A DNA stretch of 64,000 nt, taken from the NCBI GenBank assembly GCA_963555705.1, contig OY743169.1, positions 10,292,014-10,356,013 on the forward strand. Direction: 5' to 3'. A model generated the notes under the pieces. That model did no database searches, was not told where the DNA came from, and worked only from the letters and a program-made list of their open reading frames with translations. Origin of the DNA: Ligustrum vulgare (lineage: Eukaryota > Streptophyta > Magnoliopsida > Lamiales > Oleaceae). Position numbers and translations under genes: made by a program. This document shows, piece after piece, positions 733 to 59,886 of the stretch; positions within the stretch are counted from its first letter, which is position 1; each line of letters starts with the position of its first letter.

Positions 733-910
733 GAGCCACGCGATCGCGTGGCTCGAACCAAGTCGCGAACGCGACTTGGACCTCAAAACGGACTCGAGAC
801 CAACAATGGAGCAGATTTTTCAAGCGCGCAATCGCGCGCCTTTAGAAATTAAAAAAAAAAAAAAGAAATTTCCGAGCCGAACCGGGTCAACCCGGCCGAC
901 CCGGTTCGGC
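733..910 (+). promoter_or_regulatory. CpG-rich palindrome cluster in U3 of LTR A
   Basis: Four inverted repeats lie in otherwise AT-rich DNA. There is a perfect 22-bp palindrome at 733-754 with core CACGCGATCGCGTG. A second, at 758-779, has arms CCAAGTCGCG and CGCGACTTGG around a 2-base centre. GCGCGC arms sit at 824-829 and 834-839. A 13-bp inverted repeat GCCGAACCGGGTC/GACCCGGTTCGGC lies at 876-888/898-910. The cluster ends about 60 bp upstream of the TATA box. A promoter role is inferred from position only. Confidence 0.7.
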
Positions 911-972
911 CCAGATGCTGAATTTCACGGATCTTTGCCTTTTTTTAGGGTTTTGGATGATTTTGGGGGTAT

Positions 973-980
973 TATAAATA
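973..980 (+). promoter_or_regulatory. TATA box of LTR A
   Basis: TATAAATA in the middle of the LTR, the expected place for the U3/R promoter of a long plant LTR. It lies downstream of the palindrome cluster. Confidence 0.6.
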
Positions 981-2025
981 GATAAAATCAAATTTTTAGG
1001 GGGACTCATGTAAGTTCTTGCCTCTTTAACTTTTCTTTGTAATTTTCATCTTGATTTTCATACTTTTAATGCAATGTTAAGTTAATATTTTTATGTTTAT
1101 GTAAAGTTATTGTGCATTTAAGTTGCTTATTATTGTTGGGCTTTTGATTATTGTTATTTTTTTTTCATATTTCCATCAAGAAGGTCATTTATTTCTTATG
1201 CATTTAATGCTTTGTGTTTGAGTTGTTGAAGATATTAATGGTTGATGAAGAAACTTGATTCAAAGTGAAGGATTCTTGAGTTTTCACTTCAAGAACTTTA
1301 CAAAAAGGGGGAGTTTTCTTTATTCTCTTGTTTTTAATCTTTATGTTGAGTATTATTCATATGTTTATGTTGTTTGTTAAATGTTGTTGTTAGTTTATTA
1401 TGAGTTAATATTATTGTGTTGGAATTGTTGACTAGTTTATCTCTTATTAAGTATTTTAGATTGTTTATGGATGTTGAGCATTTATATTTATGTTTTTGTG
1501 ATTATGAATGTTGTTTTAGGTTTTTGTAACTTTTAAATGTGTGTTATTATTTTAAGTTGTAATTGGAATTTATTACACAAGTTAGGTAATGTTAAAAATT
1601 TCCCATGTAATTTGATTGATTGATTAACTACCACTAATTGATTTTTGAAAAGAAGAAATTAGTATAGTTATGAAAACTAAATTCACTTTGTTTTATGTTA
1701 TGTAACTTATTTTAATTATCAAGTTTATATTGTCATCAAAGTATTTAGATTAATTAGCTTTATTCTAAGTTTCATGTTGTTATCTATTTGCTTTAGTTAA
1801 CTAGTTTACATATTGTCATATTTCTTATTTGTGTCACTTAGTTAGTAATTCACCACCAAACCATAATTTTTATGTTACTTGACTTTTCTTTTAAAATGAA
1901 ATCAATAACTTTAGTTACAAATCACTCAATCCTCGTGGGTACGATAACCCGGACTTCTCTAGTCCACTTTACTACTTGAACGCGAACCGTGCACTTGCGT
2001 TATACGATTTTAGCGAACAAGTTTT

Positions 2026-2043
2026 TGGCGCCGTTGCCGGGGA
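2026..2043 (+). other. Primer binding site of element A (tRNA-Asp type)
   Basis: TGGCGCCGTTGCCGGGGA lies 6 bases after the LTR end. This is the usual Athila/Tat PBS, complementary to the 3' end of tRNA-Asp. Confidence 0.9.
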
Positions 2044-2151
2044 CTGATTTTATTTGTACTAAATGCATTGATTTTTGTTAATTGAATTGTCTTCTCATTC
2101 TCATCTCTTTCTTCTTTTTATTTTCATTTTCTAGGTGCTCTTGCCTTGTTT

Positions 2152-3343
2152 ATGCAACAACGTCGGACTTGGGACATTCTTCCAATTGATCCCGAATCCG
2201 AACGAACTTTTAGGAGGAGGATTAGGGAAAGAAAAGAACAAGTTGAACATCAAAGAATACAATGCAATATGGGGGGACAACAATCAAGGTGGTGCTAATC
2301 CCGTTATTGATGAAGATGATAGACCAATGGGGCAATTCATGGTCCCTCTCATCACTCAAAATCGAGGAAGCATCACATATCCCCCATTTGGACGTCCGGA
2401 CTTTCATCTAAAGCCGGATGTGATAAATCTCTTCAAGGGGCATCTACAATTCTATGGAATGACCGAGGAGAATCCATTTACTCACATCTCGCGGTTTTTG
2501 GAGATGTGTAGTAACTTTGATTATCCGGGAATTAGCAAAGAGGCTATCAACATGCGATTATTTCCACATACCCTTAGAGATGGAGCTCGTGAATGGTTAG
2601 ATGCCAACCCGGTTGGAAGTATTACAACATGGAATGATCTTGCTCAAAAGTTCACTACAAAATACTTTCCTCCATCAAAAGTGGCTAAATTGAAGAGTGA
2701 CATCTCCACATTTCGACAACTTGACACCGAATGTTTCTATGAGGCATGGGAAAGATTCAAGGAGATGTTGAGGAAATGTCCAAATCATGGGTTCACCAAG
2801 CAAATGCAAGTTCAATATTTCTATCTTGGGATGAATCCATCTAGTCGAGTGACGGTTGATTCGGCCTCCAATGGAGCTATCACTACAAAATCACCTAATG
2901 AGGCAATTGAGCTCTTTGAGAGGATGGCTAGTTACAATTCTACTTGGCCAACCGACCGCATGGTACCAAAGAGAGCCGCGAGAATTCATGAAGTTGATGT
3001 ATATGCGGCTTTATCGGCAAATATGGACCTTCTATTCAAGAAGTGTGATGATTTGTCTTCTCAACATACGGTAAAAGCAATCTACCCTCCTATTTCTATT
3101 TGTGATGTATGTGGAGCAACACACAAGGTTGAGGAATCTCCCATGCTCAAAATGGCTTCTACTTCAAATGAGCAAATGAATTATGCTCAAAATTCCAACC
3201 GACCACAAGGCAATCCTTACTCCAACACATACAATCCGGGTTGGAGGAATCATCCGAATTTTTCTTGGTCCAACAATCAAAATCAAGTAAAGCCTCCCGG
3301 TTTTGTTCAACCTCCCGGTTTTGTTCAAAATCCACCACCCTAA
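2152..3343 (+). pseudogene. Athila-type gag, frameshifted
   Basis: The natural start is probably the ATG at 2152, which opens with residues MQQRRTWDILPIDPES and runs in one frame until a stop shortly after the G6 run at 2271-2276. A one-base indel there moves the rest to the next frame. From about 2290 that frame gives a continuous Retrotrans_gag domain (NPFTHISRFLEMC, LRDGAREWLD, FTTKYFPPSK, YEAWERFKEMLRKCPNHG) and a Pro-rich repeated PPGFVQ tail. A TAA at 3341-3343 interrupts what was a continuous gag-pol frame. The frame also reads through 2135-2151 upstream, but without an ATG. Confidence 0.85.
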
Positions 3344-6006
3344 GAGAAGAATCCTTCCATTGAGGAGATACTCATGCAATTCATGAACAAGACCAATATT
3401 ATTCTCCAAAATCAAGCGGCTTCTATCAAAAATCTTGAGACTCAAGTTGGGCAATTGGCAAAAATGATGACGGAGAGACAACAAGGAGCCTTGCCAAGCA
3501 ATACCGAGATCAATCCAAGGGAAAATGTGCAAGCCATTACTACAAGAAGTGGAATTCAATTACCGAAAATCACGGTAAAACAACATGTGGCACAACCCGA
3601 TGTGAAAGAAAAAAGTAATGAGCATGTTGAGGAGACGAATGAAAATGATGCAACATTGAAGGAAAGTGGAGAGACCTCAACAAAGGTTCCTACTCCAGTG
3701 AAAGCTTATGTGCCTCCCATTCCTTTTCCTCAAAGATTCCAAAAGCACAAGGTGGATGCACAATTTGGTAAATTTCTAGAAGTTTTCAAGAAACTTCACA
3801 TCAACATACCTTTTTCCGATGCATTAGCATAAATGCCTAACTATGCAAAGTTTATGAAAGACATCCTTTCAAACAAAAGGAGGCTAGAAGATCATGAAAC
3901 TGTGATGCTCACGGAAGGATGTAGTGCCATACTACAAAACAAATTGCCTCCAAAAATCAAAGATCCTGGGAGTTTTACTATTCCTTGTACTATTGGTGAT
4001 TTAAATCTTGGAAAAGCATTATGTGATCTTGGTGCTAGTATTAACTTAATGCCTTTGTCTATTTTCAGGAGATTGGGCATGGGAGAGGTGAAGCCAACCA
4101 CAGTTTCATTGCAATTGGTCGATCGCTCTATTAAGCATCCGTGTGGTATTATTGAGGATGTGCTAATCAAGGTGGACAAATTCATTTTCCCCGTCGATTT
4201 CATCATTCTTGATATAGAGGAAGACCTTGATATCCCAATCATCTTGGGAAGACCCTTCCTAGCAACCGGCCGAGCTCTAATAGATGTGTAAGGAGGCAAA
4301 TTGATATTGAGGGTTCAAGATGAGCAAATCTCATTTGACATCATGAAATCCATTAAGTATCCCGCCGAAGTAAATTTATGCTCCCGAGTAGACATCATTG
4401 ATCAAGAGGTGGCTACATCATTCATCTATGAGTCATCTAAGGATCCCCTTGAGACTTGCATTGCTCACTCCATCACCACCGAGGGAGAGGATGATTTGGA
4501 CATCGGAAGGATATCACAACACTTGGATGCTTCCAAATTTTATCCCTTCAAGAAGAGGCCATATTTTGAAGATTTGGAAGAGAGCTCTTCTCCTTCACTA
4601 CCCTCCATTCAAAAAGCCCCAACTCTTGAGCTCAAACCTCTTCCATCACATTTGAGGTATGCATACTTGGGTGATTCTTCTACTCTTTACGTTATTATCT
4701 TATCTCGAATTTGTTGGATGAAGTGGAGGAAGAGAAACTACTTTAGGTGTTGAAAATGCATAAAATGGCTATTGGGTGGACTATTGCGGATATCAAGGGT
4801 ATTAGCCCTACCTTGTGCATGCATAAAATCCTCATGGAGGATGACTTCAAACAAACAGTGGAGCACCAACACCGTCTAAACCCAAACATGAAAGAAGTAG
4901 TGAAAGCCGAGGTATTGAAGTGGTTGGATGCGGGAATTATCTATCCAATCTAGGATAGTGCATGGGTGAGTCCCGTCCAATGTGTACCAAAGAAAGGAGG
5001 TGTCACGGTGGTTGAAAATGAGAACAACGAGCTTATTCCTACAAGGCCCGTGACGGAATGGAGAGTGTGCATTGACTACCGAAAATTGAACAATGCCACT
5101 CGAAAAGATCCCTTTCCTCTCCCCTTTATTGACCAAATGCTTGAGAGGTTAGCGGGGCATTCTCATTATTGTTTCTTGGATGGATACTCGGGCTACAATC
5201 AGATTTTAATAGCCCCCGAAGATCAAGAGAAGACCACCTTTACATGTCCATATGAGATTTTTGCTTATAGGAGGATGTCGTTTGGTCTTTGCAATGCACC
5301 GGCTACTTTTCAACGTTGTATGATGGCCATTTTCTCCGACATGGTGGAAAAATTCATCGAGGCATTTATGGATGATTTTTCAGTTTTTGGTTCTTCTTTC
5401 AATGAATGCTTGGATAATCTTGATCTAGCGTTGAAAAGATGTGAAGAAACCAATTTAGTGCTTAATTGGGAGAAATGCCATTTTATGGTGAGAGAGGGCA
5501 TTGTACTTGGCCACCGGATTTCACAAGGGGGGATTGAGGTTGATAAAGCCAAAATACAAGTTATTGAGAAATTGCCTCCTCCTACTTCAGTGAAAGGCAT
5601 AAGGAGTTTCTTGGGGCATGCGGGTTTCTATAGGAGATTCATCGAGGATTTCTCTAAAATCACTAAGCCTCTTTGTTCTCTACTTGAGAAGAACAAAACT
5701 TTCCATTTCTCTCAAGAGTGTCTATTGGCTTTCAACACTCTTAAGGAGAGGCTTATCTCGGCTCCTATTATTGTGGCCCCGGATTGGAGCTTACCATTTG
5801 AGCTCATGTGCAATGCTAGTGATTATGCCGTGGGAGCGGTTCTGGGGCAAAGGAGAGGTAAATTGTTGCATGTGATCTACTATGCAATCCGAACATTGAG
5901 TGATGCTCAATTGAATTATGCCACAACCGAAAAAGAGATGCTTGCCGTGGTCTTTGCCTTTGACAAATTTCGATCTTATCTCATCGGCTCAAAGGTAATT
6001 GTCTAA
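3344..6006 (+). pseudogene. Athila-type pol (protease-RT-RNase H), degenerate, integrase missing
   Basis: The gag-pol frame continues with stops at 3830-3832 and 4289-4291, a frameshift near 4690-4700, and further stops at 4744-4746 and 4951-4953. Recognisable parts are the retropepsin-like segment (CDLGASINLMP, about 4020-4055; LGRPFLAT near 4245) and the RT (CIDYRKLN, SFGLCNAPATFQRCM, active-site FMDD near 5366-5377). The connection/RNase H start follows (NASDYAVGAVLGQR, NYATTEKEMLAVVFAFDKFRSYL). The first RNase H aspartate, normally in a CDASD motif, reads CNASD. The frame ends just after KVIV at the deletion junction, with no integrase. Non-functional. Confidence 0.88.
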
Positions 6007-6040
6007 AATGCTTGCCGTGGTCTTTGCCTTTGACAAATTT
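5938..6040 (+). repeat. 33-bp templated duplication at the deletion junction of element A
   Basis: The 33 bases at 5938-5970 (encoding MLAVVFAFDKF in RNase H) are repeated exactly at 6008-6040. The second copy joins directly to LTR sequence that corresponds to 1347 onward. This marks the breakpoint of the internal deletion. Confidence 0.95.
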
Positions 6041-6713
6041 TGAGTATTATTCATATGTTTATGTTGTTTGTTAAATGTTGTTGTTAGTTTATTATGAGTT
6101 AATATTATTGTGTTGGAATTGTTGACTAGTTTATCTCTTATTAAGTATTTTAGGTTGTTTATGGATGTTGAACATTTATGTTTATGTTTTTGTGATTATG
6201 AATGTTGTTTTAGGTTTTTATAACTTTTAAATGTGTGTTATTATTTTAAGTTGTAATTGGAATTTATTACACAAGTTAGGTAATGTTAAAAAATTTTCAT
6301 GTTATTTGGTTGATTGATTAACTACCACTAATTGATTTTTGAAAAGAAGAAATTAGTATAGTTATGAAAACTAAATTCACTTTGTTTTATGTTATGTAGC
6401 TTATTTTAATTATCAAGTTTATGTTTTCATCAAAGTATTTAGATTAATTAGTTTTATCCTAAGTTTCATGTTGTTATCTATTTGCTTTAGTTAACTAGTT
6501 TACATATTGCCATGTTTCTTATTTGTGTCACTTAGTTAGTAATTCACCACCAAACCATAATTTTTATGTTACTTGACTTTTCTTTTAAAATGAAATCAAT
6601 AACTTTAGTTACAAATCACTCAATCATCTTGGGTACGATAACCCAGACTTCTCTAGTCCACTTTACTACTTGAACGCGAACCGTGCACTTGCGGTATACG
6701 ATTTTAGCGAACA
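6041..6713 (+). repeat. Truncated 3' LTR of element A
   Basis: It matches 1347-2019 over the same length with about 20 scattered differences. It lacks the first 1004 bp of the LTR, including the palindromes and TATA box. It ends GCGAACA and is followed by the GTAAG target duplication. Confidence 0.92.
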
Positions 6714-6718
6714 GTAAG

Positions 6719-7160
6719 ACATCTAGATAAGGAATATTCGGACTCGCTGTAGAGATACAAGGTTGACTTATTTAGGTAGGATTGATTTAAACTCGAGAGA
6801 GGAATCTCAATTTGAATTAGTGAATTCGATCGAACACATATTTAGAAAATAGAACCTGGATTTGGAATTGATTTAATTGAGTAGGTGAATTCGTGAATCC
6901 CAACTAACTTACAATCGTTTTTAAAACAAAAACAAATTTGCAAATTTAATTCTTTGGTTTAATTTCTTAGGTTTAGATCACAATCACTAATTCTCTTTGT
7001 CTGTTCAAATAAAGTTTAGAACTAAAATATTTCGGTAATTAATAGAAGTCTCTGTGGGACGATAATCCGGACTCTACGATCCACTTTATTACTTCTCATG
7101 ACCCGTACACTTGTGGGGATATCTTACATCGCGAGATATCAGTGAACAGTCGGCCCCTGG
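6719..7160 (+). repeat. Right part of outer LTR fragment (F)
   Basis: The end carries the same U5 block seen in LTR A and LTR B: a GTGGGACGATAATCCGGACT core at about 7055-7074, then TCCACTTTATTACTT and CCCGTACACTTGTG. It is followed by CAGTGAACA. What follows (TCGGCCCCTGGGGAC) looks like a damaged Asp-type PBS. No internal coding sequence of this element follows. Confidence 0.55.
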
Positions 7161-7497
7161 GGACTTGGATGGGGGGGGGGAATATAGACCAAAAACTGTT
7201 AATCTTTTACAATGGATTTTTTCCTTAGAATAACATAATATTTAAACAATACATCATGTAGATATGGTTAAGTAATTGAAGAAAATAAATTCACTCAGAT
7301 ATCTCACAAAATTTTGTTCTAACAAGAACTACAGAGACATCACCAGTGAGCAGTATAATGCTTCAGCTCAATAATCCACTCAAAAATAAACAAAATCACA
7401 GGGCAGTTATAATATAAAACCATAAGAACTATTGCAAATCCTTGTAAAAAAGTGGGACCAAAAGGGGAAGAAAATTCTAAAGGCCATTAACTCTCAC

Positions 7498-9025: not shown

Positions 9026-9030
9026 CCTGG

Positions 9031-42700: not shown

Positions 42701-43334
42701 ATTAGTCAAAGATTTCAATCTTCATTTTTTACTTTTCAAAAAAATGGATGAACGAAATGCTGTCATGTCGCTATTTATATCGATATTTATAAGTAATCGT
42801 TTATAACCAGTTTGTCAAACAAATTAAACAAATTTTAAGTATAAATGATGAAATGTATTATTGCGAATAGAATGTCTAATCATAGTCTTAGGTTCGGTCA
42901 TAAGAAATCATACGAGCTCACAACAGTATTATTTCACGCTTCAATTTTCTATTTATAGTTCAATTCTATGTAAGCCTTGCATGAAAAAAGAATTATTCAT
43001 GCTACATGTTTGATGATTTGCACAGGTGAATGAGAAAGAAGAAAATGTTTCATGGAAAGCCATAGGATACTGCGGACCAGATCCAAAATTAACAAAGCAA
43101 AAATCCAATCCCAAAAAAGTAGAAACAATTGCAAATCAAAGATCAGAAGGGAATCAAGAACAAGAAGATTCAAGTAAAGATGATCTGCAGTTTGAACCTC
43201 TTTACAAGGGCATAATGAATCTAAACCAACCAAAGCAAATAATCTTTGATAAACTTGAGAAATTTGGGTTTCCTGTTTCCATTTCACATTCCAAAAACCC
43301 AAAAATAAAATCATTCAACCCATCTTTTGTTATC
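39767..43334 (+). pseudogene. Long-chain fatty-alcohol oxidase (FAO) gene, 5' part only, broken by LTR insertion
   Basis: Exon 1 39767 to about 39999 (FSADQMEALIALCDTFLPS), exon 2 about 40163-40432 (LSRLALWALSTWIGTFILCG, FLRFSQISLQKREQILLSWS) and exon 3 43026-43334 (VNEKEENVSWKAIGYCGPDP, LEKFGFPVSI, NPSFVI). Junction CAG|GTATTT...CACAG|GTG is phase 0. The exon 1-2 junction is ambiguous, with two possible acceptors. The segments match the N-terminal third of plant FAO proteins, FAD-dependent GMC-family membrane enzymes that oxidise long-chain alcohols to aldehydes. Exon 3 stops right before the expected FAD-binding GSGSGGG region because the LTR of element B begins at 43335, adding an immediate TGA. 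No catalytic domain lies downstream in the window, so the gene is dead here. Intron 2 is 2.6 kb. Confidence 0.88.
40433..43025 (+). other. Long intron 2 of the FAO pseudogene
   Basis: AT-rich and non-coding. It contains a (GT)n microsatellite (about 41918-41945), poly-A runs (41066-41079, 42294-42308) and a GAA-rich patch (42309-42322). The unusual size suggests old TE insertions, but no ends are clear. Confidence 0.5.
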
Positions 43335-44189
43335 TGACAACGCTCCGCAAGTGCACGGGTCACGCAAGTAATAAAGTGGATTTTAAGTCCGAATATCGTT
43401 CCCACGGAGATTGTTTTAAATCGTATTTTAGACTACTACCTTAACCGGAACTAGAGAAATTGTTTGAATTTGAGAATTTTGAATTAAAATTAAACTAGAA
43501 AGAACGAGAAAATTTGATTTAGAGAAAATATGAGAAAAACATGCTAGAATTGAGAATCCACATTTATTCCATTAATTACGCATTAAATTAAACATCTAAC
43601 AATAATTCACGAGGTTTTGAAAATCCATATTCCTAATATTGTCAAGACTCCATTTCGGACAAGAATCAACATCTATTTCTATACACAATCCAACTATATT
43701 TCTATGACGAATCTAAATGTATAGAAAGGTATTACAAATTTAGTGAATACTATAGCAGATAACACAAAGCATAGGGGTATATTTTTATCCCCTATCGAAC
43801 TTTGTGGCAATTGATACAAGTCTAATGAAATCTCAATCTTTCGAACTTAAGAAATCACAACCTAAAATCATACAACTAGTGATCAAGTAATTGCATGATA
43901 AAAACAGTATATATCAATTGCTCAAACCCATGAACTATGAAATTAAATGATAATCAATACATAAAATCCGGAAATAAATGCTTCATCACAATTCTAACAT
44001 TCAAAATCTAGCCTAGATACATAATTGAATATAAATCACAAAAGGAATGGATAGATGTCACCCTATTCATGCCCTTGATCTTCGTTCTTCAATTATGTCT
44101 TGGCTTGGAGTGGATCCCTCCGCAATCCGACAGCGTTTTGGCCTCTCTTCAATGAATTGGGAATCCCTAATCTCGTGCCCTTGGTCTGG

Positions 44190-44197
44190 TATTTATA
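44190..44197 (-). promoter_or_regulatory. TATA box of LTR B
   Basis: TATAAATA on the minus strand, about 80 bp downstream of the palindrome cluster in transcription order. Confidence 0.6.
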
Positions 44198-44279
44198 GAT
44201 TTTCTCGAGATTTAGGTTAAGTGAGGAGAAAACTGCTGAATTACGCGCAAAAAGCCCACCTGCGGCCCAGTCGGGACTA

Positions 44280-44399
44280 CCGTGCGGCCGCACCGTTCAA
44301 AAACACGCGGTCGCATGACTCTGCAGGTAAACTTCAGTCGCCGAATTTTTTGACCGTGCGACCGCACGCCTTGTACAACCGTGCGGCCGCACGGTTGTA
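44280..44399 (-). promoter_or_regulatory. CpG-rich palindrome cluster in U3 of LTR B
   Basis: Three copies of one motif. 44282-44293 is GTGCGGCCGCAC. 44355-44368 is CGTGCGACCGCACG, with one mismatch pair. 44374-44399 is a perfect 26-bp palindrome with core CCGTGCGGCCGCACGG. A fourth half-site (ACACGCGGTCGCATG) lies at about 44302-44317. The cluster lies 83-202 bp upstream of the LTR TATA box. Confidence 0.75.
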
Positions 44400-45365
44400 A
44401 TTCCGGTTGCAATTTTTATCTTTTAAATTCTGCAACTTGGTCCCTGTCTTTTAATTGCACAGCAAGTCCTCCAACTTCTGATTGTTGCAATTTAACTCCT
44501 GAACTTCTGATTTCTTCCAAATTCGATTTTTTCTTCAAATTAGCTATTTAATTGACTGCATCAATTATTGATTTGCTCACTTTGACACTTTTTACATCCA
44601 GTTGCTCAATTTTAGCTTCAATTCCTTTGTTTTCTCGAATTTGGGATTATTTCTGAAATGTAAACAAATAACGCAAAATAAATAGCAAATATTCCAAAAC
44701 AAACATATAGAATCCTACTTTTAGGATAGAAATAAGTGTATAAAATACACTTATCAATACCCTCAAACTAGAACTATTGTTCGTCCTCGAACAAAAAATA
44801 AAAATAAACTATAAAAATAAAAATGCAAATTAAATAAAAATATATATTTTTGCTTTCGTCAACTTATTTACCATGCACTTCGACAATCCAAATTGACAAT
44901 TCACTTTAGAAAAAGAAATATGAACAACATAAAATATTTTCATTCATCCGATGCTCAACTTCATTGTGTGTGTGTGAATAGCCAAAATCAACCGCAAACT
45001 TATGCAAAAATAAACTTGACAATGTGTGACTTTTTATGCAAGAGTAAGCCCAAATCCCATGTGATCAATAATGATTTTCTTTTGATTTTCCTTACCCTCT
45101 CATGAATGAGCACAACCTTACTGCTTTTCTCTCATATCCCGAGGTCTTTCCTATTGATGTGGTTTCTAAACATGTATAAATCGCATTTTTACACACAAGG
45201 CAGTTAGGACTAGACAAGTATGCATGACAGACCGAGAAAAATTAACAAAGTGTTAGGAATTTCAATCAACAAAGCTTATACCATTTTATTCCATTTTTCT
45301 TTCATATGGACGACTTTTTCTTTTAATGTCCTTGTCTTTTACCATCTTTGTGCAATACTTTTCAT

Positions 45366-45654: not shown

Positions 45655-47312
45655 ATTTGAAGAGTAGAATAAGACCTTCAGCATTTTTCTGTTTTTATGC
45701 TGGTTATTATGGTTTATACCCGTTGATCGAAACCCCTTACACTAAAGATGTAAAATTAAAAAGTTCAAATCCTTAACTACCAATGCATACTCAATCTAAC
45801 CTTCCCACCCCCAAACTGCTTCTTGAGCAGTTTGGTTCTACATTTCAGTTCGGGATCTAATTTCTTAAGGTTTGAGATTTTACAGTCAGTTCTATGTTCA
45901 AAGTGCACAAGTTTATCCCACAAATATCAAACATCTCCCTACACAAGCTTTTATTCGAAGTGGCTATGTGCTCAAGCTTGATTAAAGTCTCACATGAATG
46001 AATGTTAAGAAAAATTTAGTTCGCATGTTGCCCAATTTTCTAACTAAAGCACAAAAGTCAATTCATATCGTATCATAAGTAATAAATAAATCAACAAAAA
46101 ATTTCAAATTTTTCACTTTTTATGATTTTTTCAATTTTTTTTTTTTTTTTTGAATTTTCTACCCAAAATCGAATGAATGTGTATATGAAAGCACATGAAT
46201 GAAATTCCCACCCCAAACTAGAATCATACATTGTCCTCAATGTATTCAAAACACATAAAGAAAATAAACACAGAAATAACAAAGAGGGTTAATGTACTTC
46301 CCGGGTTTGGAGAGTTGGTATTCCCATTTTGTTTGAAGCTTTGACTTGCATGTTTTGTTGGAAGAGATGACCCCTTACTTCTTTTTCCATGTTTGACGTG
46401 AATTGTCCCATGATGATATGTTCCTTGCAAATAAACATTAATGATCATTAGAAGCATAATTATTACATAGGAACTAAAGAAAATCAACGCAACACACCCA
46501 AACTAGGACTTAGAAAAAAATTATGAAATTTTTGAAAAGTGGTCGACCACTGATTTTCAACCCTTGACATCACCTTGAAAAAGTGAAAATTTCCCGAGAC
46601 ATGTCCCGGGCATATGAAAGTACATAACTTGGTCTACAACATATCAAAAATTTAGCAAGTTTGAAGTTCATTTGGGTCATGAAAAGATGTGACAAAGTAA
46701 GTGCAGTGAAGCTGAAAACAGGTGCACTGGTGCAGTGGTGCCTGCAATGGCCTTGCAATAAGGTGCCTTGTAGTGCAAAGATGTTCATGTTGAGTTCTAT
46801 GCCTTAAATCTGTGTAAACAATGAATGGATGATGCAAAATTGATGTTTAACATGTAGTGAGGATGATCATCCAAAAAGAATTTCAAAAACTCAACAAAAC
46901 ATTCATTGTGACATTTATTCAAACACCTTGTAGACACATGAAGCAATCAATGGAGAACATAGAGTTGGAGACTTTAATTTACCCAAATTTTTTTTTTCAC
47001 CTACAAATCACAATTCAATATTTCCAATCCTAGCCTAAACCCATCATCAACTATCCACAATTTCACAATTTACAACAAGAATGAGGAACAAAAGAATATC
47101 CATGATTTTGTGAAATTGTGTAGAAATCCATACCTCTTGAATGTTTTTGATGCAATCCAAAACATGAAATAGAGTTAAAATGATGTGCAAGTAATGGGGA
47201 CTAATTGGGGACTCAATGTTGGATGATTTGGGAGAGGTAAAACGGGTTTGAAAGTGGTTAAAATGAGAGAATTCAACATATAAATGAATCTGTCGAAACT
47301 GTCCAGAATTGA

Positions 47313-47354
47313 ACCATGCGACCGCACGGTTTAATCACCGTGCGACCGCACGGT
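47313..47354. repeat. Pair of LTR-type palindromes in the 3' region of element B
   Basis: ACCATGCGACCGCACGGT (47313-47330) and ACCGTGCGACCGCACGGT (47337-47354). They use the same motif as the LTR B cluster but lie outside the LTR. Confidence 0.85.
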
Positions 47355-48242: not shown

Positions 48243-49501
48243 TGTAGCGCCCCGAGTTCTAAATACCCGGTTCACCACGTCATTTTCTGTTCTGAATTTA
48301 AACATAATAATCTAGCGGAAGAAATATTTGAAATTCATTTTTGGCAACAATAAATAAACTGTAATGGCCGATAAAATTGAAAAACATTTATGAAAAACAA
48401 TTCGAACCATTAATTTTTGTAAAGCAGTTGACAATGTCACAACTTCTCGAATAACTGAAATTCTCAAAATTATCCAATGTTTGAAAATACGGAAAACATT
48501 AAAGTAAGACATCTCAACCATTTAACGGTTATTGCCACCATCATCCATCACTTGCCACGGTCTCCGAAATCTGCAAGTGTTGTAAAAATAGACATGAGCA
48601 TTTCATAGAAATACTCAGTAGACTCATCGCCCATTAATTAACCTACAATATAATTGAACACATAAATGCAGGCTCTTTAGAAACATAGGGCGTGGGTAGT
48701 CTCTTCTTGTGCATTAAAGCACGGGGCTTATTTTGAAAATCATAGGCTCTTTAGAAAATCGGGTGTGGGTAGTCTCGTCTCTCGTGCTCATGAGGCACGT
48801 ATGTTATGCATAACATCATCATTTCTTGTAGCTGATTGGGCTCCCTCAAGGGGCCTTTTCCCAATCTTGCCCGTATACTCATATCATCATTATTCCTGAC
48901 GAGGGAATATAGGCTCATTTTCATGAAAATGACTTTTCACAAGTCACATAACATTCAACCATTATTTCCGAAGAAATACATTTTCATTTCTTTTCATAAA
49001 AATGACCTTCACGGGTCACATGACATTCACATGCAATCATAATTTAAATCAATTAATAGGGGCGAGTCTACCTTAAACTTGACGAGTGTGGTTGAGCGGG
49101 AAACGACTTCCATTCTTTAATTCTCCGTACGCTTCGTCTGGCCACTTAGAAGATTTAGTCGAATTAGTCTTTTGAAATTTATAGTTAAAATGATAAATTA
49201 CAATTTAGGGACTGAAATCGACGTTATGAAAGTTGAGGGACTAAAATGGATCATTCGAAAGCTGAGGGACCAAAATGAATACTGTGAAAGTTGAGGGGCT
49301 AAAACGTAAATTTTCAAATGTTGGGTCGAAGCTCAAAATGAATATTAAATTGTAGGGCTAAAAGAATAGATTTTAAAAATGACGGGACTGATTAAAATCA
49401 TTTAAAACTTAAGGGCTGAAATTATAAGTTTTTAAAGCTATAGGGGCTGATTTGAAACAATTTAAAACTTTGGGGGCTTAAAAGTAAATTTTATAAAAAT
49501 C

Positions 49502-49543
<42 letters not shown>

Positions 49544-51227
49544 TATCAGTACAGAGGGAGAGAGAGAACGCAGCGGCGCACTGCGAGCAGGGTCCTGCCG
49601 GGGTTAAACGCCGGCGATTTCGACGGCGCCGGGTGCGTCGGTTGGCTCACAAGGATGGGGATTCAGATTTGAGGGATTAGGTGCGAGTTTTGAGTGCGAA
49701 ACCGTGGTGCAACCGAGGCTTGATTCGCGATTTTTCGGCGAGTAGGCGGCGTTGATCGAGGTAAGCAGGGGTGGCCCTGGCCCTATGCAGTCAATGCAAT
49801 TGCATAAGGCCCCCAAGGTGTGAAGGCCCCCAAAAGTGTATAAGGTCTAGCAGTTTAGTCTAATAGATATTTCAAAGTTTCTAAAAAAAAACCTATGTCA
49901 TCAAAAAATGTTAGAAGAGTAAATTTAATTTCATATCTTGACGGTTTACGTTATTATTAAACAATTTTATTTAATAATTTTTTCGTTCAAGGGCCCCATT
50001 TAAAATTTCGCATAAAGGCCCCTAATTTTTTGGACGCTCCAGGGCCGGCCCTGGAGGTAAGTTACTGGGTAAGTTGTGTTTGGGGTTTTTGGGTTTGATT
50101 CTTGGGGTTGATTCTGATTTTGGAAGTGGGATGGCCGACGAGCAGTAGGCGGGTTTGGATGTGGTTCGGTGATGGATTCTTGGGTTGGGCAGTGGCGGTT
50201 TCGAACGGTGGTTGGTGGTTGGTGGTGGTGCTTGGTGAGTGTTTTGGTTTGGATTGTACAGTGGGCTGAACTGGAATTGGTGGTGGTTTTGGTGCTGATG
50301 ATGGTTCTGGCTACGTGAGGGAGAAGGAAGAGCAAACCTTCCCTAGGCTGAAATGCTAGATTGGAGGGTGGAAATGGGACTGCAAATGGAGGTGGGAGGA
50401 GGCTGCTGGTGGATGCTAAACTGAAATTGTACAGAGTGGTTTTGGGTGGTGACTTCGGTTGAAAAATTGAGATGGCTATGGTGTATGAAATTCGATTTCT
50501 TATGGTGCAGTGTTAAATTGGATGGTGGAGATTCTGCAGTGAGGTTTGGATTGTGATTGCAGACGGTTGGCAGTGAATTTCCGGTGGTGATCTGATTGGC
50601 AGAAATCAGATTGGCAGTGATGGAAATTCCGATGGTGGTGATGATGCTGGGTGGAACGGTTGGTGCAGTATTGTGAGGTTGGACTGTGGTTTGCAGATTG
50701 GAGATGATGATGGCTGCTGCTGTGATTTGGGAACTCAGTTGCAGAGAATTTGAGGATTTGTGATGATGAAGTTGATGTTTGGCAATTAAAGAGGATAGTG
50801 GATACATAATAATGATGTGGTAGGTGGAGAGTTAGGTTGTAATGGGGTGGAGAAAGTGGAGTTAGTGGGGAAAATTTATGTAGGATTAATTTTTTGATTA
50901 TGATAAATATTGGACTAAAAATAAATTTGAGAATAAATAAATATTGGGATAAAAATTGAATTTCGTATTTGAACTTGAAATAATTTAGATAAGGAAAATT
51001 TGAATTTAAAATGATTTTGAAAATAATACTTTGAATAAATAATTAAAATAACATAATTTTAGAAATTCGGACATTTAATTTAAAAATCGAATGAATTTAA
51101 CATTTCTCGACTTGGCTAGACGAATCCGTCGCGGCGTTAACTTCAAAATAATGAGTGAGATAGTAGCAACAAGATTTTCTAAATATTAAAATAATTATTA
51201 ATTGCGTAAAAATTCTTGGTCGCTACA
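48243..51227 (-). repeat. 3' LTR of element D
   Basis: Nearly identical to 55599-58587. It contains a series of GAGGGACTAAAATG-type short repeats (49210-49330), a (TA)n tract (49501-49533) and a nested hAT MITE (49766-50053). Open frames on the minus strand at 50000-50807 are low-complexity His/Pro/Thr-rich and are repeated in the other LTR, so they are not genes. Confidence 0.95.
49766..50053. mobile_element. hAT-type MITE inside the 3' LTR of D (288 bp)
   Basis: Ends CAGGGGTGGCCCTGG and (right, reverse complement) CAGGGCCGGCCCTGG, flanked by a perfect 8-bp duplication GAGGTAAG (49758-49765 and 50054-50061). 8-bp duplications and CAGGG ends identify the hAT superfamily. Confidence 0.92.
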
Positions 51228-51239
51228 ACCTTACCCCTT

Positions 51240-52120
51240 TAAAATAATTTCGTCCTCGAAATTTAAATTTACTTGATCTTATGATATCTGGATATTTAAC
51301 CAGAATCTCTTCTTCTTTCTTTCTCTCAGGTAGCATCATCGCTACCATGTCTAACCCACTGGACTTTGACTAATAGAATCTCTTTGTTTCTTAAGACATG
51401 GACTTTTCTCTATATTATGCACATAGGTGCCTCTTCATAAATCAAATATTTCTGAACTGCAAGGGACTGATCATTCATCACATGACTATGATCACGAACA
51501 TATTCTCTCAATAGAGAAACATGAAAAACATTGTGAACAGCTACAAGTTCTGGTGGCAAAGCCAACAATAAGCCACATTATCCACTTCTCTAGTATTTCA
51601 AATGGTCCGATGAAACGAGGCCTTAATTTCTCTTTTCTTGCCGAAACAAAAAGTACTCTTCATAGGAGCTACTTTCAAGAACACTTTCTCTCTAATCTCA
51701 AACATTTAGTCTTTTATTCTTTGATCGGCATAACTATTCTGTCTGTCTTGGGCAACTTTAATCTGTAATCTGATCTTCTTGATAACATCAACTGTTTTCT
51801 CAATTAATTCTGAACCCAATAATTTCCTCTCATTAACTTCATCCCAATAGTTTGGCGATTAACATCTCTACCCATACAGTGCTTCGTATGGCGACATATC
51901 AATGGTAGCCCGAAAACTGTTATTGTAGGCAAATTCTACTAATGGAAAAATGTGTCTCTCAATTACCATTCAAGTCTAGCATACAGGCTCTAAGCATATC
52001 TTCCAGCGTCTGAATGGTGCGTTCGGACTGCCCGTCTGTCAGGGGATGGTAGGCAGTACTAAAATTTAATTTAGTACCCATTGCCACAAGAAAACTCTTC
52101 CAAATCTCAAGGTAAAAAAA
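51240..52120 (-). pseudogene. Integrase C-terminal remnant of element D
   Basis: Minus-strand pieces give STAYHPLTDGQSERTIQTLE, the end of the rve core with its catalytic Glu in QSE. Then come MLRACMLDLNGN, a stop, and PLVEFAYNNSFRATIDMSPY and EALYG. These are standard chromovirus integrase sequences. Stops and frameshifts abound. About 1.1 kb downstream of the core should lie a chromodomain, and I do not recognise one. Confidence 0.8.
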
Positions 52121-55100
52121 ATTCTCGAATCTCTATCTGAAAAACGGACATTAGCAATCCATGAAATCGAACAACTCCTCTAATATATATTTGTACCTCA
52201 TACAAAGCTATCAAAAAGGCGCTTGATAACTATTGAGTAGAACTCAATCGATCATTTTACATTGTCCAACTTATAAACTCATTCATTGACCTTCTATTTC
52301 CAACCTTTCAAGAATCTATACTGATATCGAATCCACGATATAAATATCAATCATTCCAATGCTTAAACTAAAAATCAAGAAGATTGATCAAGATAAAACC
52401 TCATTATCCAAAATATAGAAACGAAGTATCAATTCCAAAATATTGAGTACAACCCAAACTTGGCAGAATCTTTCTGAAAAGGATTTACAAACGTAATCAT
52501 TTCTAAACTCATCTGAAATTTCCTTTTCAAAATTGGAGAAATTCAAACTTGAATCCTTTAGTCCAGACTTCTAAATCATGCATCAAGTACCATGTATCAC
52601 ATACTCATTCTAGTCGAGGACTAATGTATTAACTTAAAACAGCATCATAAGGATCAAATATGATATCATCAAATCTAAGAAACCTCACTAACTTCCCAAT
52701 CTGAAGCTCAAGATACAATTTTCCATGTTCTCCCAAACTTCAATTCATGTCACACTATGAACAATACTCTAATTAAGTCCCTCACCATTTAATAAGACTT
52801 CTGCGAACCATATTCGCTTCCTCATAAAGTTTACTTAACCCAACGATACAATCTCATTATAAGTAAAAGTCACACAATTGATCATCTCAAGTTTTCCATT
52901 ATTGTTGCAAAATATTTTACTCACATCAAAAGTACAGCCGATAATAAGTAATCGAAACTGCATAACCAAAATCTTAAATAAATTCGTATATCTTATGACT
53001 CAAAATGAAGATTCCAAATCGCAAGTAATATTCCACCATAATTCAATAAACCATCAAAATAAGATCAATTTACTCAATATATTCACACAATCCTTCACGG
53101 GATAACCATAACATCTATTAACCGTCTAGTCACCATATCTTGTAGTAATCATGTAACATGTCACTTATCATCGCATCATATGACCTCAAATAATCATATC
53201 AATCTCTCTAAGATTTCAATATAGTAACCATCATATCTATCACGAAATCCTTATACGTCAATCTGCTCACTAAGATTATATATCAATCTCTCAAACTAAA
53301 CAAATCTTGGATTCTGCCATATGTCACTCTTTCTGCACACTACTCCATAATAAGTCATTACTGTGAAGTCTGATCCCCATTCCACAAATTCTATCCATAA
53401 GGACAAATACATAAAATTTCATTTCTTATTCTTGACCCAAATACCATCAGTAATAATTTCCAAAATTTCAAGGTATGATCTTATCATAAACTTTCCTCCG
53501 ATCAAATGCGTTACTTCTGCAATACTCCAACAATTTTAGGACCTGGTAAAAAAAATTTCCTTTCATCAATTTCATCAAACAATTTCTCTCATGATCTTCT
53601 AATATCATAAATGGAAATTTAATGTACACCAATGAATCATTCAAATTACGAGGAAACCCTGATTTATTTCCATGACTGCGACTCATCTTTCTTCAAATTT
53701 CATTTAGAACCAAACATAGCATAACTTATTCCTGAAAAGTCAACTTATTTCATAATCTCAATATATCATCACCTTTAGTTCTCACCATCACATTATTCCT
53801 TATAATCATCTATTGTACCTTTTATACTCAAATGACCTTATGACAGTCATCATAATCTCTCATAATCCCAAACATTCGATCATATGTCTCCAAATTCTCA
53901 CTTCGAATAAATGGTTACTCCTTTAAGGCATCTCACCATAAAATACTTCCAATATCTCTCGTTCATGATAACTGACTTCCCAAATAATCATATTACTTGT
54001 AAAAAAAAAAAAAAAAAACAAATCTTTAACACATCATCTACTAAATCAACTTCCAAAGTAAATCAACAGTAATATCGCATACCATCATAGTTTATAATAT
54101 TCTCCAATATGAGTGCTCATTTCCAACTAATAATCAATTCGTTCTCAAAAATAATTAAGATCCTTCCCAATATTGCCATAATATTTGTCATCACTATCTT
54201 TCAAAATATAACTTGACATTTCCAAATGTATGCATCAATTCTTCACATCACTTCATGTATTCCTTAAGATCCCAGTAGTTGTATACATCATATTATTCTT
54301 GAAATTGTGAAACAATGAGAGTATATCAATAGGACTATATCCATTACGAAAAATGATCACACTTCAAAGAAGTCAAAAATATCTCAAAAGTCATTATCTC
54401 CTTATATCATTTACTAAATCTTGCTTGGGGTGTAAATGAACTTGCAAGTCTAACCTCAATTCCTTTAGTGGGTTGTTTTACCATACCATGCTCTTAACTC
54501 AAAATGATAATATTCTGGGCAGAGTCTCCCTTGTAATTTGGACTAATCCAACCCGTAGGTATACTTTATAACCAACAATAACAACCTGTAGTTATACTCC
54601 ACATCTGACCACCACGATTTAAATATTGACAACAATTCCAACAAACTTCAATTCCATCAAAATATCCCAAGAATAAATTCATAATTCCTTAACATAACAA
54701 TTTCAAATCATAGTTTCCAATATCACAATATCACTTCCTTCAATACATTAATTGGCTCAAATGACAACCCATTGTCATACTTATAAAATATATGACACAA
54801 ATCAAAATTCCAAAATTTCTTAATTACAAGATCAAACAACATTATAAATTTCTCTTAAAATAGATGAATAATTCACTTATAATCTTAACATCTCATAAAA
54901 CTTCATAAAATTGGCTTGCTATTTCTCGTTTAATCTGAACGATAGATAATCTGAACATATTGTCTAATCATTTCTGTTGACTTCTCATACTTAGTGCCAT
55001 GTCTAAAATCAATTATGCAAAGTCCAGTTAGGGTTCATCATTTCTAAACTTGAGGACAAAAATTATTTTGAAATCATTCTTAAATCATATTATTCCCATT

Positions 55101-55561
55101 ATACTCAACACTCGTTCTCTTTCTTTTCTTTTTCTTTCTGAAAAACTTTCTCATTATACTTCAAAACTCATTTCTTTCTTTCTTTCTGAAAATTTTTTTC
55201 GTTATGCTTCAAAACTCATTTCTTTCATATTCGGATACAATCTCTTCTTCTTTAGTGACGACCCGGCTCCCTCGCTGGGGTCTTCTCCGAGTCGTACTCA
55301 TAGTCTAAAACATATAAATTATGACAAGCATAACAACATCATAAATCTTCTTTCTCATAAATCATTAAAATAAGTATCCGAAATACTCTTCATTCTTTCT
55401 CATAAATCAGTAAATAAGTATTCGAAATACTGAAATAACTTTAAACATCATAAACTTCTTTACCTCGGAGTTGGTGGAACGAGTGATGGTAGTGGCAATC
55501 TTCATCAATAATAATTTAATAATGTAAAATATGTCTTCGAAACTATCTTTGAAAACTTTTG
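52121..55561. other. Interior of element D without recognisable coding sequence
   Basis: About 3.4 kb where gag, protease, RT and RNase H should be. The plus strand is strikingly poor in G and rich in A, T and C, with stops in all frames. I could not identify any RT motif with confidence. An A run lies at 54002-54018. Confidence 0.6.
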
Positions 55562-55597
55562 CCAGTCTACAGAAACGCAGACTGGCTCTGATACCAA
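55562..55597 (-). other. PBS of element D with an adjacent hairpin
   Basis: Minus strand TTGGTATCAGAGCC (55597-55584) begins one base after the LTR. CCAGTCT (55562-55568) and AGACTGG (55579-55585) form a 7-bp inverted repeat overlapping the PBS edge. Confidence 0.85.
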
Positions 55598-55598
55598 C

Positions 55599-56857
55599 TG
55601 TAGCGCCCCGAGTTCTAAATACCCGGTTCACCACGTCATTTTCTGGTCTGAATTTAAACATAATAATCTAGCGGAAGAAATATTTGAAATTCATTTTTGG
55701 CAACAATAAATAAACTGTAATGGCCGATAAAATTGAAAAACATTTATGAAAAACAATTCGAACCATTAATTTTTGTAAAGCAGTTGACAATGTCACAACT
55801 TCTCGAATAACTGAAATTCTCAAAATTATCCAATGTTTGAAAATACGGAAAACATTAAAGTAAGACATCTCAACCATTTAACGGTTATTGCCACCATCAT
55901 CCATCACTTGCCACGGTCTCCGAAATCTGCAAGTGTTGTAAAAATAGACATGAGCATTTCATAGAAATACTCAGTAGACTCATCGCCCATTAATTAACCT
56001 ACAATATAATTGAACACATAAATGCAGGCTCTTTAGAAACATAGGGCGTGGGTAGTCTCTTCTTGTGCATTAAAGCACGGGGCTTATTTTGAAAATCATA
56101 GGCTCTTTAGAAAATCGGGTGTGGGTAGTCTCGTCTCTCGTGCTCATGAGGCACGTATGTTATGCATAACATCATCATTTCTTGTAGCTGATTGGGCTCC
56201 CTCAAGGGGCCTTTTCCCAATCTTGCCCGTATACTCATATCATCATTATTCCTGACGAGGGAATATAGGCTCATTTTCATGAAAATGACTTTTCACAAGT
56301 CACATAACATTCAACCATTATTTCCGAAGAAATACATTCTCATTTCTTTTCATAAAAATGACCTTCACGGGTCACATGACATTCACATGCAATCATAATT
56401 TAAATCAATTAATAGGGGCGAGTCTACCTTAAACTTGACGAGTGTGGTTGAGCGGGAAACGACTTCCATTCTTTAATTCTCCGTACGCTTCGTCTGGCCA
56501 ATTAGAAGATTTAGTCGAATTAGTCTTTTGAAATTTATAGTTAAAATGATAAATTACAATTTAGGGACTGAAATCGACGTTATGAAAGTTGAGGGACTAA
56601 AATGGATCATTCGAAAGCTGAGGGACCAAAATGAATACTGTGAAAGTTGAGGGGCTAAAACGTAAATTTTCAAATGTTGGGTCGAAGCTCAAAATGAATA
56701 TTAAATTGTAGGGCTAAAAGAATAGATTTTAAAAATGACGGGACTGATTAAAATCATTTAAAACTTAAGGGCTGAAATTATAAGTTTTTAAAGCTATAGG
56801 GGCTGATTTGAAACAATTTAAAACTTTGGGGGTTTAAAAGTAAATTTTATAAAAATC

Positions 56858-56903
<46 letters not shown>

Positions 56904-58587
56904 TATCAGTACAGAGGGAGAGAGAGAACGCAGCGGCGCACTGCGAGCAGGGTCCTGCCGGGGTTAAACGCCGGCGATTTCGACGGCGCCGGGTGCGTCG
57001 GTTGGCTCACAAGGATGGGGATTCAGATTTGAGGGATTAGGTGCGAGTTTTGAGTGCGAAACCGTGGTGCAACCGAGGCTTGATTCGCGATTTTTCGGCG
57101 AGTAGGCGGCGTTGATCGAGGTAAGCAGGGGTGGCCCTGGCCCTATGCAGTCAATGCAATTGCATAAGGCCCCCAAGGTGTGAAGGCCCCCAAAAGTGTA
57201 TAAGGTCTAGCAGTTTAGTCTAATAGATATTTCAAAGTTTCTAAAAAAAAACCTATGTCATCAAAAAATGTTAGAAGAGTAAATTTAATTTCATATCTTG
57301 ACGGTTTACGTTATTATTAAACAATTTTATTTAATAATTTTTTCGTTCAAGGGCCCCATTTAAAATTTCGCATAAAGGCCCCTAATTTTTTGGACGCTCC
57401 AGGGCCGGCCCTGGAGGTAAGTTACTGGGTAAGTTGTGTTTGGGGTTTTTGGGTTTGATTCTTGGGGTTGATTCTGATTTTGGAAGTGGGATGGCCGACG
57501 AGCAGTAGGCGGGTTTGGATGTGGTTCGGTGATGGATTCTTGGGTTGGGCAGTGGCGGTTTCGAACGGTGGTTGGTGGTTGGTGGTGGTGCTTGGTGAGT
57601 GTTTTGGTTTGGATTGTACAGTGGGCTGAACTGGAATTGGTGGTGGTTTTGGTGCTGATGATGGTTCTGGCTACGTGAGGGAGAAGGAAGAGCAAACCTT
57701 CCCTAGGCTGAAATGCTAGATTGGAGGGTGGAAATGGGACTGCAAATGGAGGTGGGAGGAGGCTGCTGGTGGATGCTAAACTGAAATTGTACAGAGTGGT
57801 TTTGGGTGGTGACTTCGGTTGAAAAATTGAGATGGCTATGGTGTATGAAATTCGATTTCTTATGGTGCAGTGTTAAATTGGATGGTGGAGATTCTGCAGT
57901 GAGGTTTGGATTGTGATTGCAGACGGTTGGCAGTGAATTTCCGGTGGTGATCTGATTGGCAGAAATCAGATTGGCAGTGATGGAAATTCCGGTGGTGGTG
58001 ATGATGCTGGGTGGAACGGTTGGTGCAGTATTGTGAGGTTGGACTGTGGTTTGCAGATTGGAGATGATGATGGCTGCTGCTGTGATTTGGGAACTCAGTT
58101 GCAGAGAATTTGAGGATTTGTGATGATGAAGTTGATGTTTGGCAATTAAAGAGGATAGTGGATACATAATAATGATGTGGTAGGTGGAGAGTTAGGTTGT
58201 AATGGGGTGGAGAAAGTGGAGTTAGTGGGGAAAATTTATGTAGGATTAATTTTTTGATTATGATAAATATTGGACTAAAAATAAATTTGAGAATAAATAA
58301 ATATTGGGATAAAAATTGAATTTCGTATTTGAACTTGAAATAATTTAGATAAGGAAAATTTGAATTTAAAATGATTTTGAAAATAATACTTTGAATAAAT
58401 AATTAAAATAACATAATTTTAGAAATTCGGACATTTAATTTAAAAATCGAATGAATTTAACATTTCTCGACTTGGCTAGACGAATCCGTCGCGGCGTTAA
58501 CTTCAAAATAATGGGTGAGATAGTAGCAACAAGATTTTCTAAATATTAAAATAATTATTAATTGCGTAAAAATTCTTGGTCGCTACA
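55599..58587 (-). repeat. 5' LTR of element D
   Basis: The partner of 48243-51227. Ends and nested features are identical, with the hAT MITE at 57126-57413 and a longer (TA)n tract near 56860-56892. Confidence 0.95.
57126..57413. mobile_element. hAT-type MITE inside the 5' LTR of D (288 bp)
   Basis: Same position, ends and GAGGTAAG duplication (57118-57125, 57414-57421) as in the other LTR, so it was copied with the LTR by reverse transcription. Confidence 0.92.
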
Positions 58588-59007
58588 TCACATAAGACCT
58601 TATTGAATTTTAAATCACCTATAATGCAAGGTATTGAAAAGCTCCCTGGGTCTTTGAGCTTAGGTGGCAGCTTGTTTTGCAAGATTGCGCTGCATTCTTC
58701 ATTTAAAGTGATCTCCTCAAGTTCTCAAGCTTTTTCTTGCTAGACATCATCTTTTTTAGCAGCTTGGCGTAACTTGGGATCTGTGTGATGGCTTCCAAGA
58801 AATGAATATTTATGTGCAGTTTTCTCAGCATGTTCACAAACTTATTAAACTGCTTATCCTCTCTTGTTTTCTTCAGCCTTTGTGGAAATGGAATAGGAGA
58901 CTCGGGAGGCTTAATTTTTGATTTCACCTCATGGTCACCTTCATTTTCAGCCATCTTCTCAACATTCTCCACAACTTTTTCAGGAACTCCAGCTGGCTTT
59001 TCAAGTA
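58588..59007 (-). pseudogene. Late gag/early protease of element B (5' half)
   Basis: The minus strand encodes PIPFPQRLKKTREDKQFNKF, VNMLRKLHINIHFLEAI and PSYAKLLKKMMSSKKKLE, matching the equivalent part of element A near 3715-3890. A frameshift follows KKLENL. The rest (TLNEECSAILQNKLPPKLKD-like) leads into element D. The upstream end is cut off at 59001-59007 by the FAO/LTR copy. Confidence 0.82.
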
Positions 59008-59514
59008 AAGATGATCTGCATTTTGAACCTCTTTACAAGGGCATAATGAATCTAAACCAACCAAAGCAAATAATCTTTGATAAACTTGAGAAATTTGGGT
59101 TTCCTGTTTCCATTTCACATTCCAAAAACCCAAAAATAAAATCATTCAACCCATCTTTTGTTATCTGACAACGCTCCGCAAGTGAAAGTGGATTTTAAGT
59201 CCGAATATCGTTCCCACAGAAATTGTTTTAAATCGTATTTTAGACTACTATCTTAACCGGAACTAGAGAAATTGTTTGAATTTGAGAATTTTGAATTAAA
59301 ATTAAACTAGAAAGAACGAGGAAATTTGATTTAGAGAAAATATGAGAAAAACATGCTAGAATTGAGAATCCACATTTATTCCATTAACTACGCATTAAAT
59401 TAAACATCTAACAATAATTCACGAGGTTTTGAAAATCCATATTCCTAATATTGTCAAGACTCCATTTTGGATAAGAATCAACATCTATTTCTATACACAA
59501 TCCAACTATATTTC
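59001..59514 (+). repeat. Second copy of the FAO exon 3/LTR B junction
   Basis: 59001-59165 repeats FAO exon 3 from 43170, and 59166-59514 repeats the left part of LTR B from 43335. They differ at about ten positions, plus a 20-bp deletion in the U5 block (after GCAAGTG). The left edge joins element B gag directly. The right edge is cut by element C. This is duplicated DNA, not an independent gene. Confidence 0.93.
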
Positions 59515-59711
59515 TGATGAGAATCCAGGGAGTCAATCGAGTCAAAGTCAAACAGGTCAACCCTCTTTCCGAATACCGGTGGGGCCCATGACAAGATCCA
59601 AGGCTAAAGAGGTCCAAGAGTCGATGGCGGGACTCATTTTCAAGCTCCGAAATCAAGTTCCCATGGAAGAGAGCAAGATCGAGGTCAATTGCCTAATTTT
59701 GGAAGAACAGG

Positions 59712-59886
59712 AACTTTCGGTCGACCGAAAGTTTCCTTCGGTCGACCGAAACTCTGCAGGATTTTGAGGCTCAGCTGCAAGCGGTTTTGGCTGACCAACG
59801 TACGACCGAAACTACCATTTCGGTCAACCAGGTGGTCGACCGAAATAAGTTCGGTCGACCGAAAGGTAATTTCGATCGACCGAAAG
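59712..59886 (+). promoter_or_regulatory. CpG-containing palindrome cluster in U3 of LTR C
   Basis: Variants of TTCGGTCGACCGAA. There is a perfect 22-bp palindrome at 59712-59733, and 14-bp perfect copies at 59737-59750 and 59850-59863. Imperfect copies lie at about 59818-59845 (split) and 59870-59885. The cluster ends about 65 bp upstream of the TATA box. Confidence 0.8.

Follow-up and report, generated by a model that had tools for sequence, protein, structure and literature searches.

The stretch of Ligustrum vulgare DNA analysed here, a 64-kb window (64,000 nucleotides) of contig OY743169.1, consists of nested plant long terminal repeat (LTR) retrotransposons surrounding a PPR-DYW gene at 26685-28625, for which the closest match stands at 89% and the closest named one, from Forsythia ovata, at 87%, pointing to a host probably in or near Oleaceae. 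Three of the LTRs, designated A, B, and C, each contain a cluster of CpG-rich palindromes located a short way upstream of a TATA-like site in the U3 (unique 3′) region, and it is these clusters, first described in a first-pass annotation, that are characterized below. Among the four LTRs of the window with a visible U3, LTR D alone is without a palindrome array.

Palindrome clusters of LTRs A, B, and C

LTR A (343..2019, positive strand) is the 5′ LTR of a Ty3/gypsy element, with TGTTAAG...GCGAACA ends and a GTAAG target site duplication (TSD) on both sides of the element (338-342 and 6714-6718). The LTR matches 6037-6713 at 96.9% over 677 bp, and is followed by a primer binding site (PBS)-like sequence, gag, and reverse transcriptase (RT). 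In this element the RNaseH region leads into the mid-part of the 3′ LTR, and a stretch of some 30 bases is repeated at the junction (5939-6040); the 3′ LTR is therefore without the palindrome part. Element A itself sits within another LTR (1-337 and 6714-7152), whose terminal part (6714-7152) matches the LTR B end at 81% across 79 columns. The palindrome cluster of LTR A (733..910, positive strand) consists of four units: a perfect palindrome at 733-754, a second at 758-779 that is perfect except for a central AA, a bulged unit at approximately 820-841, and a unit at 876-910 with 13 bp arms and a spacer of 9 bases. These units have only a CGCG-N2/4-CGCG core in common, their arms being unlike yet still pairing; a CGG-CCG core is missing in the 733-754 unit and partial in the 876-910 unit. 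The TATA-like site TATAAATA at 973..980 (positive strand), 63 bp past the cluster, is the sole strict TATAWAW in LTR A.

LTR B (43328..44756, negative strand) is a 3′ LTR with TGATAAGTG...GATAACA ends, preceded by a purine-rich tract. The remnants of its element include gag-like and protease-like stretches, the gag label being our own tentative assignment and the protease resting on a weak RVP_2 match under its cut-off. The cluster (44279..44399, negative strand) contains units at 44279-44296, 44302-44319, 44353-44370, and 44374-44399 that follow the pattern ACCGTGCG-RY-CGCACGGT, their arms pairing at 5 to 8 of 8 positions, and lies 82 bp from the sole strict TATAWAW of the LTR, again TATAAATA (44190..44197, negative strand). 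Two extra copies of the motif are located inside element B (47313..47354, negative strand), 2557 bp ahead of the 3′ LTR, so that the motif is not confined to the LTR; no env gene was identified in this element and the open reading frames (ORFs) there are unassigned. The centre of all six B units is a purine-pyrimidine step (GC, GT, or AC), and the GC-centred units contain the CGG-CCG core. Elsewhere in the interior of element B, a 14 bp palindrome, AGTGGTCGACCACT (46538-46551), has the same GGTCGACC centre as the motif of LTR C.

LTR C (59515..60294, positive strand), the 5′ LTR of a second Ty3/gypsy element that lies only partly inside the window, has TGATG...CATCA ends and is likewise followed by a PBS-like site, gag, and RT. 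Its cluster (59712..59886, positive strand) is composed of five full or near-full and two half units of TTTCGGTCGACCGAAA, in which the CGG-CCG core is found. Of the 7 units, 6 keep an exact promoter-side half, GACCGAAA, and 2 an exact upstream half, and one pair of half-sites is everted, as expected for a protein half-site. The annotation had placed all three clusters upstream of a TATA box, which holds for A and B; in LTR C the sole strict TATAWAW is 189 bp downstream of the cluster, and the nearer site, 65 bp past it, is a weak TATATAC (59951..59957, positive strand). Repetition of the motif within a family, also proposed there, is borne out in B and C, but not in A beyond the shared core.

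The perfect palindromes of 22 bp (733-754, A), 26 bp (44374-44399, B), and 22 bp (59712-59733, C) exist as the annotation described them, in CpG-dense clusters, and all six perfect palindromes of at least 12 bp with at least two CpGs in the 64 kb fall inside clusters A, B, and C. In dinucleotide shuffles of each cluster the longest palindrome was matched by 1/1000 (A), 0/1000 (B), and 0/1000 (C), and inverted-repeat arms cover 86, 50, and 78 bases, respectively, versus shuffle means of 9.5, 7.2, and 8.3, a coverage attained in 0/1000 shuffles for each cluster. When longer U3 stretches are shuffled, arm coverage is attained by 2/300 (A), 0/300 (B), and 0/300 (C). Across the whole window, CpG inverted repeats (arms of at least 7, spacer of at most 8) number 15, whereas 100 shuffles of the window gave 2.1 on average and never more than 6, and the densest cluster holds 6 of them versus a shuffle maximum of 2. 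The clusters account for nine of the 15, the internal copies of B for two, and other sites for four; with a spacer of at most 10 the count is 19, adding the 876-910 unit of A and single cases outside the LTR clusters. The longest arms within any whole-window shuffle likewise totalled 22 bp, so palindrome length is less telling than clustering. Chance as the origin of the clusters is rejected by both the cluster and the window shuffles. A lone inverted repeat with 11 bp arms, ATTTCGGGTT...AACCCGAAAT, is present outside the LTRs at 31923-31954.

The units contain most of the CpGs present in the clusters (19/23 in A, 15/17 in B, and 17/19 in C). Centre-to-centre spacing is 25, 62, and 62.5 bp in A, 23, 51, and 25 bp in B (24 bp in its internal pair), and 21, 60, 22, 12, 19, and 21 bp in C, with 8 of the 13 unit intervals across the three falling at 19-25 bp. 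All three clusters fold better than their shuffles, with z values of -8.5 (A), -4.9 (B; 1/200 shuffles equally good), and -8.2 (C). The observed/expected CpG ratio of the promoter block is 1.78 in A, 1.65 in B, 1.68 in C, and 1.26 in D, versus 0.48, 0.88, 0.43, and 0.79 outside the block of the same LTR. Searches for the cluster patterns in viral_contigs yielded 0 and 1 stretch and the search of genome_contigs 39, giving with the viral one 40 loci that are uninformative on plants; 36 of the 40 have a local GC of at least 0.5, and the other four are titled as three cyanobacteria and one metagenome-assembled genome.

Kinship of the LTRs and the array-free LTR D

Elements A and C both contain Retrotrans_gag and RVT_1 domains, without RVT_2, and gag A, RT A, and RT C had zero relatives in viral_contigs. 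We take A and B to be Athila-like and C to be chromovirus-like, lineage names that, along with the tRNA types of the PBS-like sites, are our assumed labels. Judged from their sequences, LTRs A and B are members of related families, and the kinship extends over the LTR end and U3: blastn gives a match near the LTR end (78%, E 6e-10) and another in U3 (77%, E 3e-7), and with palindromes masked the two U3 regions align with a score of 164 versus a maximum of 98 in 200 shuffles (0/200). The masked comparison is lenient, since A-C and A-D also score (matched by 6/200 and 2/200 shuffles, respectively), and the kinship thus rests additionally on blastn. It follows that the independent cases number two, not three. 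LTR C is matched by none of A, B, and D in blastn, nor by A or B in the cluster comparison, and homology of C to A or B is rejected.

The palindrome units of A and B are not demonstrably homologous; their best local match of 28 is reached by 7/500 shuffles, and B on the reversed strand also scores 28 (13/500). The cores of A and B differ by six symmetric transitions, which is only suggestive. The kinship of the two LTRs weakens the annotation's convergence of unrelated families, although it does not demonstrably extend to the units. In the global A-B alignment, the left U3 is 51% identical, the cluster 42%, the stretch between cluster and TATA-like site 29%, and the final 37 aligned columns 73%, and because this alignment is weak, a history in which the flanks were kept and the palindromes replaced is only moderately supported.

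LTR D provides a control without an array. The 5′ copy (55599..58587, negative strand) has TGTAGCG...CGCTACA ends and a PBS-like site, the 3′ copy spans 48243-51227, and the two LTRs (~3 kb) are 99.6% identical over 2991 columns, with a (TA)n stretch that differs in length between them. A CpG-rich block of 241 bp (56920..57160, negative strand) ends 27 bp ahead of this (TA)n TATA-like stretch. Its longest palindrome is 8 bp, the same as in shuffles (631/1000 reach 8 bp), and its folding is ordinary (z -0.8; 40/200 shuffles equally good). CpG richness alone as a source of the palindromes is therefore rejected. A 20 bp palindrome at 57397, with its counterpart at 50037, was considered as a fourth case and rejected because it is the end of a miniature inverted-repeat transposable element (MITE), which we take to be hAT-like. 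This MITE (57126..57413, negative strand; 288 bp, CAGGG...CCCTG) has both the inverted terminal repeats and the 8 bp TSD, CTTACCTC on both sides, of a hAT-type MITE, and is carried by both D LTRs, the second copy beginning at 49766. The MITE-end palindrome alone raises the long U3 stretch of D over shuffles (1/300 and 9/300).

The young element D (48243-51227, 51228-55598, and 55599-58587) is lodged within element B, and its interior has zero ORFs of at least 100 aa on its own strand. An inverted repeat, TTCGTCCTCGAA, occurs shortly upstream of the purine-rich tract in both B (44777-44794) and D (51246-51263). The sequences at 43169-43713 and 59000-59525 are 94.7% identical, with the same sequence following the LTR B end at 43169-43327 and 59000-59163, as if copies of element B were in tandem or rearranged.

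Candidate roles of the clusters

We consider it an even chance that the clusters are U3 cis-regulatory arrays of dyad sites for host dimers, of the same kind as the RM boxes described in Sireviruses. What is directly observed is the sequence, its symmetry, clustering, position, and repetition, the internal copies in B, and the folding potential. The interpretation beyond this is that a dimeric DNA-binding protein of the host would bind each palindrome as a dyad-symmetric site, and that the array just upstream of TATA would drive or gate LTR transcription. Because the units are complementary to themselves and dense in CpG, hairpin folding and targeting by silencing may accompany such a role: in the element RNA, the U3 carried at the 3′ end could form long hairpins, and the CpG-dense hairpin-forming units could become small-RNA and methylation targets, a cost that would favour sequence change with symmetry retained. 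Binding by dimers is favoured because the half-sites of C are conserved and the arms of B are constant around a variable centre. The same reading draws on the excess of clustering over shuffles, the distances to the TATA-like sites, the concentration of CpGs within the units, the halves that recur in Sirevirus RMs, and the internal copies of B.

Several observations weigh against this interpretation. Each family is represented by one copy here, so that conservation within a family is not seen; several units are already degenerate, with arm pairing of 5 to 7 of 8 in B and 3 to 7 of 8 in C; LTR C is without a strict TATA at the place given in the annotation; and the palindrome-free CpG-rich block of LTR D indicates that an array is not required by every LTR. 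In A, unlike arms still pair across 22 bp, more than a single factor would call for, and this speaks for structure or a mutational origin. A promoter role shared by the clusters, which the annotation drew from convergent placement, remains plausible, but the kinship of A and B and the absence of an array in D weaken the case for convergence.

It is conceivable, if rather doubtful, that the structure itself matters, with U3 RNA hairpins or DNA cruciforms acting as boundaries or as sources of silencing small RNAs. In favour of this are the folding of clusters A, B, and C, well beyond that of their shuffles and not seen in the D block, and the A units, which still pair despite their differing arms. 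Set against it are the 9 bp stems of the separate hairpins of A, which are short for a Dicer substrate, and the half-site sequences of B and C, which are conserved beyond the needs of pairing and decay mostly on one side. Published maize data bear on both sides: hairpins are concentrated in Copia LTRs, where they draw raised small RNAs and CHH methylation, and Ty3 elements generally have no obvious peak of such structures (PMC10760457).

A functionless mutational by-product, in which short inverted repeats are created and perfected as reverse transcription or replication switches template within a change-tolerant part of U3, is unlikely. Such a process would account for palindromes in A that are mutually different and each symmetric, and for the different palindromes of the related LTRs A and B, but it leaves unexplained why LTRs, whether related or not, have them at the same place ahead of TATA, why the units of B and C are repeated, and why they are so scarce in the rest of the window. 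Least probable is that the CpG-rich promoter block itself counts as a methylation-sensitive switch with incidental palindromes, for although all four LTRs have such a block ahead of the TATA-like site and grass Del LTRs have variable 5′ CpG islands (PMC4029996), CpG-preserving shuffles yield no such palindromes and the D block has none, so the symmetry in A, B, and C needs a separate explanation.

Comparison with known palindrome and CpG-island systems

The annotation knew of no named element for these clusters; however, palindromic RM boxes have been described in 13 Sirevirus elements of the Ty1/copia superfamily, all but one with a CGG-CCG core, where they sit in CpG islands at a mean of 37 bp ahead of TATA (PMC2829016). 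Dimer sites, CpG methylation, and hairpins, the roles that the annotation considered, have all been discussed in print for similar arrays. Clusters A, B, and C resemble RM boxes as clustered, CpG-rich palindromes a short way upstream of TATA, and their distances of 63, 82, and 65 bp (the last to the weak TATA of C) are near the published mean. The CGG-CCG core of RM boxes recurs in C and in the GC-centred units of B, though not in the 733-754 unit of A; among random CpG palindromes of 16 bp, 9 to 22% contain it. ENV-bearing Sireviruses have extra RM copies upstream of ENV (PMC2829016), which the internal motif copies of element B may parallel. Furthermore, the Vitis Sirevirus RM, CGGTCGACCG, is identical to the core of the LTR C unit, and CGGTC/GACCG halves recur in the RMs of Osr10, Osr8, and Vitis (PMC2829016). 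CGGTCGACCG is contained in 0.25 to 0.85% of random CpG palindromes, and the match is suggestive only because C was compared against a table of 13 motifs. These likenesses weaken the claim that the clusters converge on placement and not on sequence.

The clusters also differ from RM boxes. Where the palindromic motif is described as occurring at least eight times per RM element (PMC2829016), A has four unlike units, B four and two internal copies, and C five and two halves in the part of its element within the window, and the units of A are not one repeated motif and are mostly without the CGG-CCG core. Unlike the Ty1/copia hosts of RM boxes, A and C are Ty3/gypsy by reverse transcriptase, and the LTR of B is kin to that of A, extending this kind of architecture beyond Ty1/copia. 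The authors deemed RM boxes Sirevirus-specific in relation to other Ty1/copia elements (PMC2829016). Among the papers listed from the open literature, with subscription papers mostly outside it, no report of such arrays in Ty3/gypsy LTRs was recognised. The maize Sirevirus LTR (Bousios 2016, via PMC10760457) likewise has a palindrome-rich cis-region with strong folding potential, and its hairpin region, unlike A, B, and C, is tied to small-RNA and methylation data. The CpG islands of Del LTRs, reported from grasses and reported absent from the eudicot Del group, likewise form a CpG-rich segment of Ty3/gypsy LTRs with poor conservation and were proposed to be a moving silencing target (PMC4029996); the term palindrom is absent from the text of that paper.

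Pre-TATA palindrome arrays are thus already known in Sireviruses and, as read from the window, also present in another superfamily, Ty3/gypsy. A more tentative proposal is that palindrome-array promoters are common to both plant LTR superfamilies, with symmetry and the pre-TATA place kept and the sequence swapped, as between A and B, to dodge sequence-specific silencing. A dimer-binding or hairpin module would then be retained by the element, and C and the Vitis Sirevirus would use the same half-site across superfamilies. If so, A and B, as related LTRs with different palindromes in the same place, would offer a handle on LTR evolution driven by host factors versus silencing, and if arrays prove general in eudicot Ty3/gypsy elements, a feature regarded as Sirevirus-specific becomes a wider plant retrotransposon promoter design.

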